Source: an uncultured Pelagibacteraceae bacterium (GTDB lineage: Bacteria; Pseudomonadota; Alphaproteobacteria; Pelagibacterales; Pelagibacteraceae). Taken from it: a DNA stretch of 46,854 nucleotides. Where the stretch lies: the NCBI GenBank assembly GCA_902627935.1, contig CACOLA010000006.1, positions 1-46,854 on the forward strand, written 5' to 3'. Of the stretch, positions 214 through 38,797 are shown piece after piece; the stretch's first letter is position 1, and each line of letters starts with the position of its first letter. The translations under genes and the position numbers were made by a program. The notes under the pieces were generated by a model. That model saw only the letters and a program-made list of their open reading frames with translations. It was not told the DNA's origin and did not search any database.

Positions 214-468
214 ATGAAAAAAATTACAATTTATACAGGGCCTTCGTGTAATTACTGTGAGGCCGCGAAAAGATTATTAAAAAGAAATAACGCGTCATAT
301 AATGAAATTAACATTGGTACAGTAGATGGTGCGATGGATGAGATGATAAAAAAAGCAAATGGAAAAAGAACAATACCTCAAATATTTTTTGATGATCATC
401 ATGTTGGTGGTTACGATGAGATTCGAGCTTTGGAAAAAGAAAATAAATTATTAGATTTACTAAAATAA
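214..468 (+). CDS. grxC: Glutaredoxin 3 (GrxC type)
   Basis: This 84-residue cytosolic thiol-disulfide oxidoreductase reduces protein disulfides and glutathionylated proteins using glutathione. The dithiol active site CNYC lies at residues 12-15, followed by the family's TIPQIFF segment (cis-Pro loop) and a GG-Y-DE glutathione-binding stretch near residues 65-69. The length is normal for bacterial Grx3. The ATG directly abuts the stop of the DUF2805 gene and no separate promoter space exists, so the two are probably one transcript. The gene converges on msrB with only 2 bases between the stops, which puts two thiol-redox genes side by side. Confidence 0.95.
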   Translation: MKKITIYTGPSCNYCEAAKRLLKRNNASYNEINIGTVDGAMDEMIKKANGKRTIPQIFFDDHHVGGYDEIRALEKENKLLDLLK

Positions 469-470
469 AT

Positions 471-839
471 TTATTTTGGTTTGAAAGTTAAACAAATACC
501 ATTATTACAATATCTTTTACCTGTAGGTTGAGGTCCATCATCAAATATATGACCGTGGTGTGCATTGCAATTTTTACAATGATACTCCGTTCTAGCATAA
601 CCTAATAAATGATCTGTTTTTGTCTCAAAGACTTCAGGTAATGATTGAAAAAATGATGGCCATCCTGATCCACTTTCATATTTTGTTTTAGAGTCAAATA
701 ATTTTGTTCCACAGTTTGCGCAATGATAACTTCCTTCACGTTTTTCATTATTTAGTTCGCTTGTACCGGGGGGTTCTGTTCCATCCTCAAACATAACTAA
801 TTTTTGTTCTGCAGAAAGATTTGAATTTTTTTTAGTCAT
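471..839 (-). CDS. msrB: Peptide-methionine (R)-S-oxide reductase MsrB
   Basis: MsrB repairs R-methionine sulfoxide in proteins. The start is taken at 839 (MTKKNSNLS...), giving 122 residues; a longer frame to 923 would run into the upstream deacetylase gene and adds residues unlike the family. Visible signatures are the two zinc CxxC pairs (CANC and CKNC), SGSGWPSF, and the C-terminal catalytic segment KRYCNNGICLTF, in which the first Cys is the nucleophile. A second Cys four residues later is the only non-zinc candidate for a resolving cysteine. The start lies 4 bases after the stop of the deacetylase gene, as the last gene of a five-gene run. No signal peptide is seen, so a cytosolic enzyme is expected. 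Confidence 0.93.
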   Translation of the reverse strand: MTKKNSNLSAEQKLVMFEDGTEPPGTSELNNEKREGSYHCANCGTKLFDSKTKYESGSGWPSFFQSLPEVFETKTDHLLGYARTEYHCKNCNAHHGHIFDDGPQPTGKRYCNNGICLTFKPK

Positions 840-843
840 AAAT

Positions 844-1737
844 CTATAATAACTTAGCACACGATTGATGCAAAAAAGAATGTAATTCAACAAGTTTATT
901 AAAATTTTTGTTGTAACCGCCACCTAAAACACCACAAAGAGGTATTCCTTTTGAAAAAAAATTTTCTGTTACAATTTCATCTCTTTTTTTAATTCCATCA
1001 TCAGAAATTTTTAATTTACCCAATCTATCGTTAAAATGAATATCAACTCCTGCAATGTAAAAAACAAAATCGAAATTCTTTTCATTTAATTGATTTAAGT
1101 AAAAACCAAGTATTTTTAAATATTCTTTATCCTCCATGTCGTTTTCAAGCTCTACATCGCAGTCACTTACTGATTTTTTTGCTGGATAATTTGATTTTGA
1201 ATGCATACTAAAAGTGAATACGTTATTATTATTCCTAAATATGTCAGCACTACCATTACCCTGATGCACATCTAAATCGATAATTAATATTCTTCCAGCT
1301 AAACCTCGATCTAACAAATATTGGGCAGCTACGGCTACATCATTAAATACACAATAACCTGCCCCACCATCAAAATTTGCATGATGACTTCCACCAGCTG
1401 TATTACATGCAACCCCATTTTTAATTGCAAGTTTTGCGGTAAGGACTGTTCCGCCGGTTGCAACTAAAGATCTTCTAATTACACTATCAATTAAAGGGAA
1501 ACCAATTTTTTTTATTACATTTTGATCTAGTGTTTTTTCCTTTATATGCTTGATATAGTTCTCTGAGTGAACTCTTTTTAAAGTTTCTTCAGAACATGCG
1601 TATGGTTTATGAAATTTATCAACTATTTTTTTTTCAATTAGATAATTTGCAAGTTCACCGAATTTATTAATTGGGAATTTATGATTATCACCAATTTTTG
1701 CAAAATAATCCCTATGATTTACAACTGATAATTCCAT
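844..1737 (-). CDS. Class IV (HDAC11-like) histone deacetylase family hydrolase
   Basis: This is a 297-residue zinc-dependent deacylase of the arginase/deacetylase fold. All expected active-site residues are present: tandem His 118-119 (GSHHANFDGG), zinc ligands Asp156 and His158 (DLDVHQGNG), Asp232 (AGVDIHFNDRLG), and the transition-state Tyr275 (LGGGY). The segment DRLGKLKISDDGIKKRDE is typical of the class IV branch that includes eukaryotic HDAC11. Bacterial members act on acyl-amines or acyl-lysine; the substrate here cannot be read from sequence. The gene lies 2 bases after the hydroxyacid dehydrogenase and 4 bases before msrB. Its position beside an amino-acid oxidoreductase suggests a small-molecule N-acyl substrate, which is inference. 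Confidence 0.88.
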   Translation of the reverse strand: MELSVVNHRDYFAKIGDNHKFPINKFGELANYLIEKKIVDKFHKPYACSEETLKRVHSENYIKHIKEKTLDQNVIKKIGFPLIDSVIRRSLVATGGTVLTAKLAIKNGVACNTAGGSHHANFDGGAGYCVFNDVAVAAQYLLDRGLAGRILIIDLDVHQGNGSADIFRNNNNVFTFSMHSKSNYPAKKSVSDCDVELENDMEDKEYLKILGFYLNQLNEKNFDFVFYIAGVDIHFNDRLGKLKISDDGIKKRDEIVTENFFSKGIPLCGVLGGGYNKNFNKLVELHSFLHQSCAKLL

Positions 1738-1739
1738 AA

Positions 1740-2690
1740 TTACTCAATCACACGGATTGGCTTACCCGAAGCGCAAGCTTCAAGGGACTCAATCATTTGA
1801 CTATAATACACATTATAATTTTCTACAGTCACATATCCTAAATGTGGTGTTAATAAAGCATTTGGCAAAAATCTTAATTTATTATTTTCTGGTAATGGTT
1901 CTTTTTCATACACATCTATTCCAGCCCCAGCAATTACGTTTGTTGATAATGCAATAATTAAATCATCTTCATTTATTATTGGCCCGCGAGAAGTATTAAT
2001 TATAAAAGCTGTCTTTTTCATCTTATCTAGTTCCTTCAAGGTAATACAATTTTTATATCTTTCTCCACCTTGAACATGTATGGACAGAAAATCTGAGTTT
2101 GAAATTAAATCTTCTTTACTACAAGGTAAAACATCTAAATCTTTGCACGTCTCTAGATTAAGGTTTTCACTCCAAGCCATTACTTGCATACCAAAAGCTT
2201 TACCTATCTTTGCTACTTGTGATCCTACTTTTCCAAGCCCAATGAGTCCAAGAATTTTTCCTTTAAGTTCGACACCAACAGTTGTTTGCCAATAGCCTTG
2301 ATACATATTGTCTATTTCTTCTTTAATATTTCTAGCTAATCCAAGAATTAAAGCCCATGTTAATTCTGGGGTAGGATTAAGGTTGCTTTCTGTACCACTA
2401 ACAATAATTTTTCTTTTTTTTGTAGCATTTAAATCAATAGATTTGTTTCTTAATCCACTGGTGACTATAAATTTTAGTTTACTTAAATTTTCTATTATAT
2501 TTTTTGTAATTGGCGTTCTTTCTCTCATGACTAGTAATGCTTCAAAGTCACTCAATTTATCTATTAAATCATCCTCATTCTCAAATGGTTCACTAAAAAT
2601 TTTAATTTCATATTTTCCTGATAATTTCTCTAAATCAACAAATTGTTGAGAAACATTTTGATAATCATCTAATATTGCAACTTTAAGCAT
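1740..2690 (-). CDS. D-2-hydroxyacid dehydrogenase (NAD-dependent)
   Basis: This 316-residue cytosolic oxidoreductase interconverts 2-oxoacids and D-2-hydroxyacids. The Rossmann motif GLGKVG is at residues 151-156. The catalytic trio is visible: Arg235 in NTSRGPII, Glu264 in DVYEKEPLP, and His283 in LLTPHLGYVT. Length and domain order fit the D-isomer-specific 2-hydroxyacid dehydrogenase family. Substrate specificity (glyoxylate, phosphoglycerate, lactate or others) cannot be assigned; it lacks the C-terminal ACT domain of the long SerA type. The start overlaps the end of the DMT transporter gene by 8 bases, which points to translational coupling within the 471-4821 operon. Confidence 0.9.
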   Translation of the reverse strand: MLKVAILDDYQNVSQQFVDLEKLSGKYEIKIFSEPFENEDDLIDKLSDFEALLVMRERTPITKNIIENLSKLKFIVTSGLRNKSIDLNATKKRKIIVSGTESNLNPTPELTWALILGLARNIKEEIDNMYQGYWQTTVGVELKGKILGLIGLGKVGSQVAKIGKAFGMQVMAWSENLNLETCKDLDVLPCSKEDLISNSDFLSIHVQGGERYKNCITLKELDKMKKTAFIINTSRGPIINEDDLIIALSTNVIAGAGIDVYEKEPLPENNKLRFLPNALLTPHLGYVTVENYNVYYSQMIESLEACASGKPIRVIE

Positions 2691-3576
2691 TTTTAATTTC
2701 CTTATTTGATAGAAACAAACCTAATATAATTAAAATTGCTCCAATCAAGTGAAAAAATTGAAATTGCTCGTTATAGAAATAAATTGCCATTATTGTACTA
2801 AATAGCGGGATTAGAGATAAAAAAATCCCAGCTCTATTTGCTCCTATTATTGAAACAGCTCCAGCCCAGCAATAATAAGATCCTATACTTGGAAACAAAG
2901 CTAGAAAAAAAAGAATGTAAATTAAATCTATATTAAAATTTATTTTCTGCCCTTGTGAAAACTCATAAAAAAATTGCGGAAAAATAAAAATTAATCCAAA
3001 TGTACATAAAATATGAACTAAAGTTAAAAGTGGTAAGGTAAATTTTTTCTTTTTAAGAAAAGAAGAATACAAACCCCATGAAATCACTCCTCCAATCATA
3101 ATTAAGTCACCTTTATTAAAGTTTAAAGAAAGAATTAAATCTAAATTTAGTTTTGTAATAATTGATAGAATTCCTAGAGTAGAAATAATTAGTCCTAAAA
3201 TTTGAAATTTATTGGTTCTTTCAATTTTAAGAATAAAACATATTAAAATTATAATTGCGGGAATAGCAGTATTAAAAAGTGATGCATTTATTACTTGTGT
3301 ATGAACTAATGATAAATAAGTAAATGAATTAAATAGCCCGACACTTGTTAATGCTAGAAAAAGCAATATGGGTAAATTTTTTAAAATTACATCTTTTGAT
3401 CTTTTAATTTCTTTAAAAGTAAAAGGTATCAATATTATCCACACCAAAGACCATCTAAAAAAAACTAATGACATAGGAGGAATGTCTGTAAGAAACGCAA
3501 ATTTTCCAACCATAAAATTACCTGCCCAAAATAATGTTGCACAAACCAACATTATATATGCTTTAATATTTAGCAT
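2683..3576 (-). CDS. DMT-superfamily EamA-type permease
   Basis: A 297-residue inner-membrane protein with about ten hydrophobic segments arranged as two EamA repeats, which is the usual drug/metabolite transporter layout. The N-terminus (MLVCATLFWAGNFMVGKFA) matches the family's first helix with its W-x-x-N-F pattern. Members commonly export amino acids, their metabolites or amphiphilic compounds, though some import; the substrate is not readable. It sits 3 bases after a DadA-like oxidoreductase and overlaps a 2-hydroxyacid dehydrogenase by 8 bases, so a substrate related to amino, oxo or hydroxy acids is plausible but inferred. Confidence 0.9.
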   Translation of the reverse strand: MLNIKAYIMLVCATLFWAGNFMVGKFAFLTDIPPMSLVFFRWSLVWIILIPFTFKEIKRSKDVILKNLPILLFLALTSVGLFNSFTYLSLVHTQVINASLFNTAIPAIIILICFILKIERTNKFQILGLIISTLGILSIITKLNLDLILSLNFNKGDLIMIGGVISWGLYSSFLKKKKFTLPLLTLVHILCTFGLIFIFPQFFYEFSQGQKINFNIDLIYILFFLALFPSIGSYYCWAGAVSIIGANRAGIFLSLIPLFSTIMAIYFYNEQFQFFHLIGAILIILGLFLSNKEIKNA

Positions 3577-3579
3577 ATA

Positions 3580-4821
3580 TTAACTAAATCTTACTGAGCT
3601 ATAAGGATCTAAATTTAAATTTGTATTTTCTTTAGCAATCATTCCTGAAACAATTTTTCCAGAAATTGGTCCGAGTGTCCAGCCTAAATGGTGGTGTCCA
3701 AAACAATAAAATACATTTTTATAATTTTTTGAGGGTCCCATTACTGGTAAAAAGTCTGGTAATGTAGGTCTGAAACCTAACCATTCATCTTCATGCTCTG
3801 GTAAATCTCCGAGCATATATTTTGCATTGTTAATCAAATTTTTAATTCTTGACTTCGATAATGGATTTTCTAATCCCCCAAATTCAACCGTTCCAACAAC
3901 TCTTAGTCCCTGTTCCATCGGAGTAATACCAAACCCTCTATTGGAAAATATTACTGGTCTTGATAAAAGATTATCACAATTTTTAAAATGGACATGATAT
4001 CCTCTTTCAGTATCTAAAGGGATACTTTCTCCTAGGTTATCTGTAAGTTTTTTTGAAAAAGCCCCACATGTAATTACAATTTTATCAAATTCATATTCTC
4101 GAAGAACAGTTTTAAATATTGGTTTCTCATTTTTAAACTCTATATTTTTAATATTTTTCTTCTCAAATTTTCCATTTTTTTTTAAAAATAATTCAAATAA
4201 TTTTAAAAGAATTTTTCTTGGGTTTCGAGCATGTCTTGCATATGGATAATAAACTCCTGCGTGATAAAAAGGTTTTATCTTTGGCTCTAAATCGTGTATC
4301 TCTTTTTTACTAACTAATTGTTGTTTTACTCCTAGCTCTTCTCTAACTTTAATTTCAAGCTCTCTGCTTTTTAAGTCTTGATCATTCCAGATATATAATA
4401 TTCCTTTGCTTTCAACTAATCCCTCTAAATCTATTTCATCAAATAATTCATCATAAGCCGGTAGTGCAAGATTTAAAATTTGATGCATATATTTTGCTGT
4501 ATGCATCATTTTATTCTTTGAAGTATTCATTATAAATTTGATGAACCAAGGTATCATTTTAGGAACGTAGTTCCATTTGAGTGCTAAAGGGCCAGTGGAA
4601 CTTAATAACATTGCTGGTACATCTGCTAATATATCAGTTCTATTAAGAGAGAGTGAGGCATATGGTGAAAAATGACCTGCATTTCCATAAGAAGCAACGT
4701 GACTCCCCGGCTCTTCTCTATCAAATAAAGTTACCTCAAAACCTTTTTTTTGAAGAAATAACGCGTTAGAGACTCCTTGAATACCAGCTCCCACAATGCC
4801 AATTCTTAATTTATTGCTCAT
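3580..4821 (-). CDS. FAD-dependent amino-acid oxidoreductase (DadA-like)
   Basis: A 413-residue flavoprotein of the D-amino-acid oxidase/dehydrogenase family. The N-terminal dinucleotide-binding motif GAGIQG is at residues 11-16, followed by an acidic residue (LFDRE) closing the Rossmann fold. The segment SYGNAGHFSPYA corresponds to the conserved flavin-contact region, and the C-terminal GFRPTLPDFLPVMGP and HHLGWTLGP segments match D-amino-acid dehydrogenases. These enzymes deaminate D-amino acids to 2-oxoacids and pass electrons to the quinone pool, but related oxidases act on glycine, sarcosine or hydroxyproline, so the exact substrate is open. It is the first gene of a co-directional five-gene cluster. 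The gene symbol is withheld because orthology to dadA is not proven. Confidence 0.87.
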   Translation of the reverse strand: MSNKLRIGIVGAGIQGVSNALFLQKKGFEVTLFDREEPGSHVASYGNAGHFSPYASLSLNRTDILADVPAMLLSSTGPLALKWNYVPKMIPWFIKFIMNTSKNKMMHTAKYMHQILNLALPAYDELFDEIDLEGLVESKGILYIWNDQDLKSRELEIKVREELGVKQQLVSKKEIHDLEPKIKPFYHAGVYYPYARHARNPRKILLKLFELFLKKNGKFEKKNIKNIEFKNEKPIFKTVLREYEFDKIVITCGAFSKKLTDNLGESIPLDTERGYHVHFKNCDNLLSRPVIFSNRGFGITPMEQGLRVVGTVEFGGLENPLSKSRIKNLINNAKYMLGDLPEHEDEWLGFRPTLPDFLPVMGPSKNYKNVFYCFGHHHLGWTLGPISGKIVSGMIAKENTNLNLDPYSSVRFS

Positions 4822-4871: not shown

Positions 4872-5996
4872 TTATGCTATCGATTGCTCACTATGAATTT
4901 TTGCACTCATTACTATGCCAAAACCAATCATAGTTGCTAACATTGATGAACCGCCATAAGACATTATTGGTAATGGAGAACCAACAATAGGTAGTAATCC
5001 CAAGACCATACTCATGTTTATTACAATATAAACAAACATTGACGCACCAAAACTATAACAAAAAATTTTAGCAAAATAACTTCTCGAAATCACACCTGTT
5101 CTTATAATTCTGTATATAATTATCGTATATATCAATAAAAGAAATACTGACCCAAAAAATCCAAATTCCTCAGAAAAAAGTGTGAATATAAAATCTGTAT
5201 GTTTTTCAGGAAGAAATTCAAGGTAACTTTGCGTTCCTTTTAAAAATCCTTTTCCAAAAAGGCCACCTGAACCTACAGCAATTTTAGATTGTATAATTTG
5301 ATATCCTGCTCCAAGAGGATCTCTATCAGGATTTAAGAAAGTCAAAACTCTAAGTTTTTGATAAGGCTTTAAAAAGGAAATTATAAAAGGCAATGAAATA
5401 ACTGTTATTAAAAAAGAATAAAAAAAATATTTGTGATTTAACCCAGCAAACCATAATACTATGATACCACTTATTGAAATTAATAATGAAGTACCTAAAT
5501 CAGGTTGAATTATAACTAAACTCATTGGTAAGAAAATTATAATTAAAGATATTATTACAGAGTAAAATGAATTTACATTTTCTAATCTTTTTCTATGAAA
5601 AAATTTCGCCAAACAAAGTATAATACATATCTTCATGAGTTCTGATGGTTGTATATTTATAAAATATAAATCAATCCATCTCTGAGAGCCTGAAGCTGTT
5701 ATGCCAAAATTAATTGTCCACACTAACATTATAACAACTATCAAATAACCTAAATAACCGATAGTAAACCAATATCTGATATTTAAGAATGAGATTAATA
5801 TCATTAAAAAAGTAAATATTATGAATTTAAGAAAATGACTTTTTGTATGAAACAATAACTCACCACCATCTGTGGAGTACATTGTAGCAAGACTAATCAA
5901 GCCTAATAATAATATACAAAGAAATAAAATGTAATCAAAGTTTCTTACTTTTTGAAGTATATTATTTTTATTTTCTAATTTACTGTGTAAATACAT
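4872..5996 (-). CDS. rodA: RodA (MrdB), SEDS peptidoglycan glycosyltransferase
   Basis: A polytopic 374-residue inner-membrane protein with about ten hydrophobic helices. RodA polymerises lipid II into glycan strands during cell elongation, working with PBP2. The essential acidic residue of SEDS proteins is present in EKHTDFIFTLFSEEFG, and the family motif PLPIMSYGGSSML is near the C-terminus. The ATG abuts the stop of the PBP2 gene with no gap. It is the last gene of the leuA-mreBCD-mrdA-rodA run. Length matches the family (about 370 residues). Confidence 0.96.
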   Translation of the reverse strand: MYLHSKLENKNNILQKVRNFDYILFLCILLLGLISLATMYSTDGGELLFHTKSHFLKFIIFTFLMILISFLNIRYWFTIGYLGYLIVVIMLVWTINFGITASGSQRWIDLYFINIQPSELMKICIILCLAKFFHRKRLENVNSFYSVIISLIIIFLPMSLVIIQPDLGTSLLISISGIIVLWFAGLNHKYFFYSFLITVISLPFIISFLKPYQKLRVLTFLNPDRDPLGAGYQIIQSKIAVGSGGLFGKGFLKGTQSYLEFLPEKHTDFIFTLFSEEFGFFGSVFLLLIYTIIIYRIIRTGVISRSYFAKIFCYSFGASMFVYIVINMSMVLGLLPIVGSPLPIMSYGGSSMLATMIGFGIVMSAKIHSEQSIA

Positions 5997-21994: not shown

Positions 21995-22002
21995 GATTTT
22001 TG

Positions 22003-22049
22003 TTGAATCTCTTAAGATTGCTTTTATATTAATAGTGTTGGCTTGCCAA
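22003..22049. promoter_or_regulatory. Overlapping face-to-face promoters of ssrA and thyX
   Basis: For ssrA (+): -35 TTGAAT (22003-22008), 16-base spacer, -10 TATATT (22025-22030). For thyX (-): -35 TTGGCA (complement of 22044-22049), 15-base spacer, -10 TATAAA (complement of 22023-22028). The two -10 boxes share bases, so both promoters could not be occupied at once. Assigned by eye only. Confidence 0.45.
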
Positions 22050-22116
22050 CTACGACGATAAACGAATTTCGTAATAACCATTGCGGACGTGGGGGCAGTA
22101 CCCACCACCTCCACCA

Positions 22117-22127
22117 TTACAACTTAT
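22117..22127 (+). other. Intervening segment of the permuted tmRNA precursor
   Basis: Eleven bases separate the CCA end of the acceptor piece (22116) from the first base of the coding piece (22128). In two-piece tmRNAs this segment is removed to leave the acceptor 3' end and coding 5' end. It is short enough that RNase P at the 5' side and end trimming at the 3' side would nearly meet. Confidence 0.7.
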
Positions 22128-22209
22128 GGGGGTGAACCAGATTCGACGGATGTCTAAAAGCTATTCTTTCGTTCGGAATTGTTCCTCCGTAAAGGGCTAA
22201 TTTATAATT

Positions 22210-22239
22210 GCTAACGAAAGTTATGCACTTGCTGCCTAA
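22210..22239 (+). other. tmRNA proteolysis-tag reading frame
   Basis: GCT at 22210-22212 is the resume codon; the frame reads ANESYALAA and ends with TAA at 22237-22239. With the charged alanine, the tag would be AANESYALAA. The YALAA end matches known tag C-termini recognised by ClpXP-type proteases. The stop codon forms the first bases of an 8-bp perfect hairpin (22237-22244 with 22248-22255). Confidence 0.85.
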
Positions 22240-22355
22240 TTAACATTGTTAATTAAGTAGTCGGGGTCTGGGGCACCTGGCAACAGAACGCCCCGTTTCA
22301 TTTGTTAATATCGTAAAAAATTTTTGATTTAGTTATGGTGAATTTAATTAAAAAA

Positions 22356-38720: not shown

Positions 38721-38797
38721 TGGTGCGCCTGCTAGGAGTCGAACCCAGAACCTCCTGATCCGAAGTCAGGCGCTCTATCCAGTTGAGCTACAAGCGC
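38721..38797 (-). tRNA. tRNA-Arg (anticodon UCG)
   Basis: The 77-base minus-strand sequence folds as a complete cloverleaf. Acceptor stem GCGCTTG pairs with CAGGCGC (one G-U), the D-arm is TAGCTCAACTGGATAGAGC, the anticodon stem-loop is CCTGA-CTTCGGA-TCAGG with TCG at positions 34-36, and the T-loop is TTCGACT within GGGTTCGACTCC. The 3' CCA is encoded (complement of 38721-38723). It reads CGN arginine codons. Confidence 0.96.

Follow-up and report, generated by a model that had tools for sequence, protein, structure and literature searches.

The window studied here, a stretch of 46,854 nucleotides from an uncultured Pelagibacteraceae bacterium of the SAR11 group (contig CACOLA010000006.1), carries a row of five genes on its minus strand between positions 471 and 4821. 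Comparison with related genomes indicates that the row, all in one direction, is specific to the genus and occupies a conserved chromosomal slot bounded by rodA and grxC. We tentatively read it as a core for amino-acid oxidation to which parts linked to 2-hydroxyglutarate have been added, and consider it equally likely that the genes merely share a convenient place. In the direction in which they would be transcribed, the genes encode a DAO-family FAD oxidoreductase resembling DadA and glycine oxidase (hereafter the flavoenzyme; positions 3580-4821, 413 residues; Pfam DAO, 182 bits), an EamA/DMT permease (DMT; 2683-3576, 297 residues; Pfam EamA, 132.8 bits), a PGDH-like member of the D-2-hydroxyacid dehydrogenase family (DHDH; 1740-2690, 316 residues; Pfam 2-Hacid_dh_C, 171.9 bits), a class IV, HDAC11-like zinc deacylase that is clade A-like by its residues (HDAC; 844-1737, 297 residues; Hist_deacetyl, 184.4 bits) and the peptide-methionine (R)-S-oxide reductase MsrB (471-839, 122 residues; Pfam SelR, 147.4 bits). 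The likely start of msrB is the ATG at 839-837, the mechanical open reading frame (ORF) opening at GTG 923. The ORF coordinates confirm the gaps of 3, -8, 2 and 4 bases between co-oriented genes given in the original prediction, and its five family names hold at the level of Pfam, where all five proteins score far over the family cut-off. Of the five, MsrB alone exceeds an NCBIfam cut-off (TIGR00357, 137.2 bits against 113.05); the flavoenzyme, DMT and DHDH lie below every listed one, and HDAC has no NCBIfam match.

The order sample comprised 121 genomes, 73 from the genus of the window (its own included) and 48 from a second family, and the flavoenzyme, DMT, DHDH and HDAC were each searched separately in all of them. 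At the cut-offs used, matches to DHDH and DMT were confined to the genus, and the flavoenzyme was found in the second family at 34-40% identity. When pairs are counted only if both genes share a contig and strand and lie no more than 150 bases apart, the flavoenzyme and DMT are neighbours in 50 of 56 genus genomes, DMT and DHDH in 43 of 43, and DHDH and HDAC in 32 of 38, and the adjacency persists with proteins down to about 70% identity. Among 76 mapped loci, which include some genomes twice, msrB follows HDAC in 54 of the 59 that have an HDAC of more than 200 residues, the exceptions being L066 (which ends there), L072, L073, L076 (a Saprospiraceae record) and L077. Most relatives read have rodA upstream at the same place, and grxC lies beside msrB in relatives, sometimes past inserted genes. 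Tight gaps are common in the window, where 24 of 34 same-strand neighbour pairs delimited by a simple ORF caller are separated by at most 10 bases; runs of five genes spaced this closely occur three times. Small gaps are thus the local norm, so that the spacing alone is unremarkable and the conserved order is the better evidence.

Within the genus the composition of the row varies. The four genes searched are all present in 36 of the 73 genomes, while eight have the flavoenzyme and DMT only, seven have no HDAC, six have no DHDH, 11 have none of the four and five show other patterns. HDAC, DHDH or both go undetected in 21 of the 57 genomes with the flavoenzyme and DMT. In four of the 21 the row runs into a contig end, and as many genomes are incomplete, the loci were read directly. 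Seven of the eight genomes with the flavoenzyme and DMT only continue on the same contig to msrB, one of them with inserts, and the remaining one (L150) stops after DMT. The HDAC-less genomes are readable on one contig to msrB in four of seven cases and reach contig ends in three. In addition, G054 has the row DMT-DHDH-msrB, and in five loci (L155-L159) DHDH is followed by msrB without HDAC, a methyltransferase gene lying between them in two; the contig stops after or within DHDH in L160, L166 and G064. Where DHDH is missing, DMT abuts HDAC in six of six genomes.

Two kinds of 2-oxoacid enzyme have been inserted into the row in different lineages, viz., an indolepyruvate ferredoxin oxidoreductase set between the flavoenzyme and DMT (L138, L161, L164) and an AceE-type E1 set between DHDH and HDAC (L144, L162), each over its family cut-off in the member scanned. 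Further inserts at several joints or past msrB include methyltransferases, inverse-autotransporter-like genes and a 1617-residue protein without a Pfam match. HDAC lies apart from the cluster in L072 and L073, beside a thiolase, an AMP-binding enzyme and AceE and E2 genes (Pfam for L072 only). As a separate observation, an ammonium transporter fused to a SpoIIE-type phosphatase domain is encoded downstream of msrB in L143 (8724-10958), and its relative by clustering sits between the flavoenzyme and DMT in L151.

The optional gene for DHDH offers the connection to 2-hydroxyglutarate. Its product belongs to the superfamily by Pfam domains over cut-off and by R235, E264 and H283, which are invariant in ten aligned relatives and which we take to be the Arg/Glu/His triad of D-2-hydroxyacid dehydrogenases; its closest solved chain is 4s1v, and it falls below the cut-off in all 21 NCBIfam families listed (PGDH, glyoxylate reductase and others). 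The glutarate 2-hydroxylase GlaH, which according to the available text of PMC6265302 forms L-2-hydroxyglutarate, was identified by a G012 protein scoring 448 bits (cut-off 333) and is present in 43 of the 73 genus genomes, 37 of the 46 with DHDH as against 6 of the 27 without (Fisher test, 1.4e-6). Among genomes with the flavoenzyme and DMT, GlaH occurs in 34 of 43 that have DHDH and in 0 of 14 that do not; in one of these 14 (G034) the contig ends right after DMT and the loss is deduced from the near-identical G040 and G042. On a quick tree of 57 rows built from the flavoenzyme, RodA and MrdA, DHDH changes four times, and most random pairings give three independent pairs that are concordant, none that is opposite and one without a difference. 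Since DHDH changed only four times, the association with GlaH is only suggestive.

Both genes lie on one contig and strand in 27 of the 37 genomes that have DHDH and GlaH, and on another contig or strand in 10. In 25 of the 27, GlaH lies no more than 20 kb downstream of DHDH, the remaining two being 46-49 kb away. A Liv-type transporter row with GlaH often lies just beyond grxC/comF in the genus; the window begins at a contig end just beyond grxC, inside a comF-like gene, and the region past grxC/comF in relatives therefore has no counterpart visible in it. In the sister genus, the DHDH orthologue of G218 (64%) closes an operon-like row consisting of a Liv-type ABC transporter, AzlC, a small gene in the place of AzlD, a CsiD/GlaH family member, MsrA and DHDH, of which the last three abut, and a thioesterase and a convergent msrB lie on the opposite strand beside it. 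Among 12 DHDH loci from outside the genus, an exporter or GlaH was found nearby with the queries used only in G218, and msrB in L177.

The sister genus also places HDAC next to a 2-hydroxyglutarate enzyme. LhgO lies directly before HDAC in seven of its eight genomes (74-100% similarity; 313.5 bits against a cut-off of 299 in G218), no flavoenzyme preceding HDAC in the eighth (G415), and a convergent glutathione-reductase-like gene follows HDAC in all eight (L108, L191-L198). The label "LPD" for that pyridine-nucleotide enzyme was rejected, its best score being to glutathione reductase at 484 bits, below every cut-off. LhgO over cut-off was found in none of the 121 genomes of the order sample, and in the 73 genus genomes there was no match to the LhgO family at E≤1e-20; 41 of the 48 genomes of the second family match it below cut-off, at up to 235 bits, and three of 14 control genomes were positive, E. 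coli among them. The genus thus carries GlaH without a recognisable LhgO, so that the product of GlaH should need another enzyme there, and DHDH is a candidate 2-hydroxyglutarate enzyme.

Against solved chains, HDAC scores 218.1 bits with 9rje, which is the clade A enzyme chrHDAC11-1 (PMC13325672, in its available text), 186.3 with 9gkv and 163.6 with the clade B chains 9gz5/9rjd. Residues were compared over 82 distinct SAR11 sequences at least 60% identical to that of the window, its own and one from the sister genus included. As in clade A, all 82 have Gly at the site of E94 of human HDAC11 (G79 in the window), the foot-pocket Arg (R89) and a small polar gatekeeper before the His pair, which is Ser throughout (S117) and corresponds to Thr in 9rje, Tyr in 9gkv and Phe in 9gz5. 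At the L1 position, where clade A has Arg in place of the Pro of the HPFD motif, the SAR11 sequences have Lys (79), Arg (2) or Asn (1), and 25 of 29 more distant sequences have Arg. The Glu with which the foot Arg is paired in clade A is replaced by Ala in 82 of 82 (A93) and is found in none of the 29 more distant sequences. With this one signature missing, we call HDAC clade A-like and not a clade A member; among the three reference chains compared, bit scores favour clade A. Zinc-binding and catalytic residues are kept in all 82, one of which has a gap at the Tyr. These residues would fit a non-peptide substrate. In the available text of PMC13325672, the clade A enzymes tested showed no deacylase activity on a peptide panel and non-peptidic substrates are suggested for them, clade B class IV enzymes cleave acyl-lysine peptides, and the substrates named do not include N-alpha-acyl amino acids. 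PMC11532494, in its available text, places human class IV HDAC11 in its sub-cluster 5f and states that a bacterial class IV enzyme had not yet been described. Our literature search, with most subscription journals outside its reach, found no link of class IV HDACs to 2-hydroxyglutarate in bacteria. A second, distant HDAC-family gene (27%) is present elsewhere in the genome of the window (G000 C2:75764-76588; L230), and similar matches occur across the order.

The best NCBIfam match of the flavoenzyme is DadA (PRK00711), but its 162.7 bits amount to under half of the cut-off of 383, and a proven DadA was rejected on this score; LhgO was likewise rejected, its model NF008726 (cut-off 299 bits) being absent from the 24 NCBIfam families listed at E≤1e-3. 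An AlphaFold model built with ten relatives aligned (pLDDT 85.6) has as its nearest folds glycine oxidases 4ysh and 7cyx, N-methyltryptophan oxidase 2uzz and iminodiacetate oxidase 6pxs, and also matches opine dehydrogenase and D-arginine dehydrogenase. The protein shares family and fold with the DadA / glycine oxidase (ThiO) group, at 16-22% identity to the solved glycine oxidases. It is best described as a predicted amine or amino-acid flavoenzyme. Six loci with its relatives in the second family were read (L169-L174). Next to the relative in L169, Pfam identifies an AFG1 ATPase, a second DAO gene and a gene like that of dimethylglycine dehydrogenase, and genes of matching sizes adjoin the relatives in the other five. 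Judging by size, the genes that follow these relatives are presumably sarcosine oxidase subunits. DMT, below NCBIfam cut-offs at 62.7 bits for TIGR00950 and 34.5 bits for the YddG model, is probably an amino-acid or amine exporter. Two DMT types, with 68-100% and 43-51% identity to that of the window, occur at the same place between the conserved flavoenzyme and DHDH and the type changes five times on the tree, so that DMT seems to have been exchanged in place.

The grouping is not seen beyond the genus. In a class search of 289 genomes, HDAC was detected at E≤1e-40 in 30 outside the genus, and 29 of these (all but G282) were fetched together with flanks of up to 8 kb. At a tblastn threshold of 1e-6, these 29 stretches contained no flavoenzyme or DMT, and the only other matches were one DHDH of 28% identity (L125), msrB in L112 and L125, and grxC in L124; in G150, a flavoenzyme relative of 41% identity is encoded some 11.5 kb away from HDAC, beyond the fetched stretch. 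A universal HDAC partner was rejected, no neighbour family recurring more than twice in the loci scanned: among 20 neighbour proteins from 17 of the 29 loci, 15 have a Pfam family, with MatE and an epimerase each occurring twice, and some of those without a family may be false ORFs of the simple caller. In G218, DHDH and HDAC are about 514 kb apart and HDAC is paired with a different flavoenzyme. Scattering of the genes in relatives, named with the original prediction as grounds for refuting it, is seen beyond the genus but not within it. No HDAC relative was found on viral contigs.

From the observed families, order, presence or absence and residues we infer the substrates, the direction of the DHDH reaction and co-transcription as follows. 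The flavoenzyme of the stable core would form a 2-oxoacid by oxidising an alpha-amino (or imino) acid, with DMT as its partner exporter. DHDH, as an optional part, would interconvert 2-oxoacid and 2-hydroxyacid, and may act together with GlaH where the breakdown of lysine/cadaverine passes through the 2-hydroxyglutarate/2-oxoglutarate node. HDAC, also optional, would be a small-molecule deacylase, most likely freeing an N-acylated amine of the lysine/cadaverine route, the candidates being N-epsilon-acyl-lysine, N-acetylcadaverine and 5-acetamidovalerate. MsrB would be a repair gene within the same row. A bolder version appears unlikely to us. In it, the clade A HDACs of bacteria, mitochondria and plastids would be lysine/cadaverine small-molecule deacylases, linked in SAR11 to LhgO in one genus and to DHDH and GlaH in the other, and DHDH would supply the 2-hydroxyglutarate dehydrogenase missing from SAR11 that have GlaH and lack LhgO.

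Several observations weigh against a 2-hydroxyglutarate-linked amino-acid oxidation cassette. The flavoenzyme and DMT are kept where DHDH is absent, and the flavoenzyme is thus not specific to a 2-hydroxyglutarate route. Six of the 43 GlaH genomes have no DHDH, five of them lacking all four cluster genes searched and the sixth (G013) having HDAC near a contig end; conversely, nine of the 43 genomes with flavoenzyme, DMT and DHDH show no GlaH (completeness 55-87%), that of the window included. Corrected for phylogeny, the test of DHDH against GlaH gives a median p of 0.25, significance being unreachable with these pairs, and as GlaH is often a near neighbour, exchange of the whole region could explain the co-occurrence. 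HDAC is only weakly associated with GlaH (28 of 41 as against 5 of 15; Fisher test, 0.03). The GlaH-DHDH row was not confirmed in a second sister genome, where 100 kb of G409 gave one DHDH-like match of 30%. DHDH belongs to a D-specific family whereas the product of GlaH is the L form, so that DHDH would be no simple substitute for LhgO; G218 carries both DHDH and LhgO. As for HDAC, 9gkv with its Tyr gatekeeper shares three of the clade A residues (Gly, foot Arg and the basic L1 residue), so that only the gatekeeper and bit scores place HDAC nearer clade A. Finally, its neighbours are varied in other alphaproteobacteria, and class IV HDACs lie near photolyase or cryptochrome genes on two sphingomonad plasmids (L241, L242; two of four annotated plasmids opened, of 10 hits), which argues that neighbours may say little about substrate.

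These points bear on the choice between an amino-acid oxidation core and the equally tentative alternative that unrelated genes occupy a flexible slot of a streamlined genome under a common promoter, without forming a pathway. That alternative accounts for tight spacing as the local norm, for parts gained and lost separately with other genes inserted at several joints or past msrB, and for the want of a constant HDAC partner in the other alphaproteobacteria sampled. It is less at ease with the unbroken DMT-DHDH adjacency, with the persistence of flavoenzyme-DMT pairs down to about 70% identity, with DMT closing up on HDAC wherever DHDH is missing, with the tracking of GlaH by DHDH, and with HDAC lying beside a 2-hydroxyacid enzyme in both genera. 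The original prediction was a possible linear route from N-acyl-amino acid to D-hydroxy-acid, in which HDAC would free an amino acid, the flavoenzyme form the 2-oxoacid and DHDH form the D-2-hydroxyacid, while DMT could act as exporter and MsrB might counter peroxide. Its conserved row, its amino-acid, 2-oxoacid and 2-hydroxyacid families and a deacylase group suspected of small-molecule substrates (PMC13325672, in its available text) have stood; all the families are chemically compatible and the four genes searched occur together in about half of the genus genomes. The obligatory order of deacylation, oxidation and reduction has not, since genomes retain the flavoenzyme and DMT while missing HDAC, DHDH or both (four perhaps because of contig ends), the grouping is absent from the 29 non-genus loci read, and the class IV enzymes of PMC13325672 act, in its available text, on acyl-lysine peptides (clade B) or on nothing in the panel (clade A). 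We consider such a strict route improbable.

A sulfur-related role, in which the flavoenzyme and DHDH handle oxo and hydroxy forms of methionine beside Msr enzymes, would make sense of the regular position of msrB after HDAC and of G218, where MsrA abuts DHDH and msrB is convergent. MsrB acts mainly on peptide-bound residues, however, no methionine-specific metabolic gene was seen in the row, and it is GlaH, not a sulfur gene, that tracks DHDH; this explanation thus seems very unlikely. A second MsrB is encoded in the genome of the window (G000 C1:33070-33411; L001).

A CsiD/GlaH-LhgO glutarate hydroxylase pathway has reportedly been studied in Pseudomonas putida. The amino-acid oxidation core with its additions would share the L-2-hydroxyglutarate node with the E. 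coli pathway (PMC6265302), the likeness being that relatives have GlaH near the cluster and the sister genus has LhgO next to HDAC, both scoring over their cut-offs. It differs in that the genus of the window has no LhgO-family match and that no GlaH is in the window or was found in its genome; DHDH, class IV HDAC and DMT are not part of the E. coli description in the available text of PMC6265302. Cadaverine use by SAR11 and its glutarate hydroxylase step are already published (PMC8437039), the scheme legend naming glutarate 2-hydroxylase and L-2-hydroxyglutarate dehydrogenase and the available text naming no deacylase and no DHDH.

The slot itself is bounded upstream by rodA (RodA/FtsW-type; positions 4872-5996, minus strand; Pfam FTSW_RODA_SPOVE, 315 bits), followed outward by mrdA and mreD, and downstream by convergent grxC for glutaredoxin 3 (214-468, plus strand; TIGR02181, 99.4 bits against a cut-off of 90). 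Promoter and terminator scans of the window gave signals no commoner than in shuffled sequence. A riboswitch was rejected, as Rfam listed for the window only tmRNA (two models) and one tRNA; these correspond to an alphaproteobacterial (permuted) tmRNA at 21999-22297 and a tRNA gene at 38724-38797.

The host belongs to an abundant group of ocean bacteria. Clade A HDACs keep their catalytic residues and have no known substrate, and their genomic partners in SAR11 yield a short list of compounds. The comparison also exposes a gap: SAR11 bacteria with a glutarate hydroxylase and without a recognisable LhgO should need another means of oxidising 2-hydroxyglutarate, for which DHDH is a concrete candidate.

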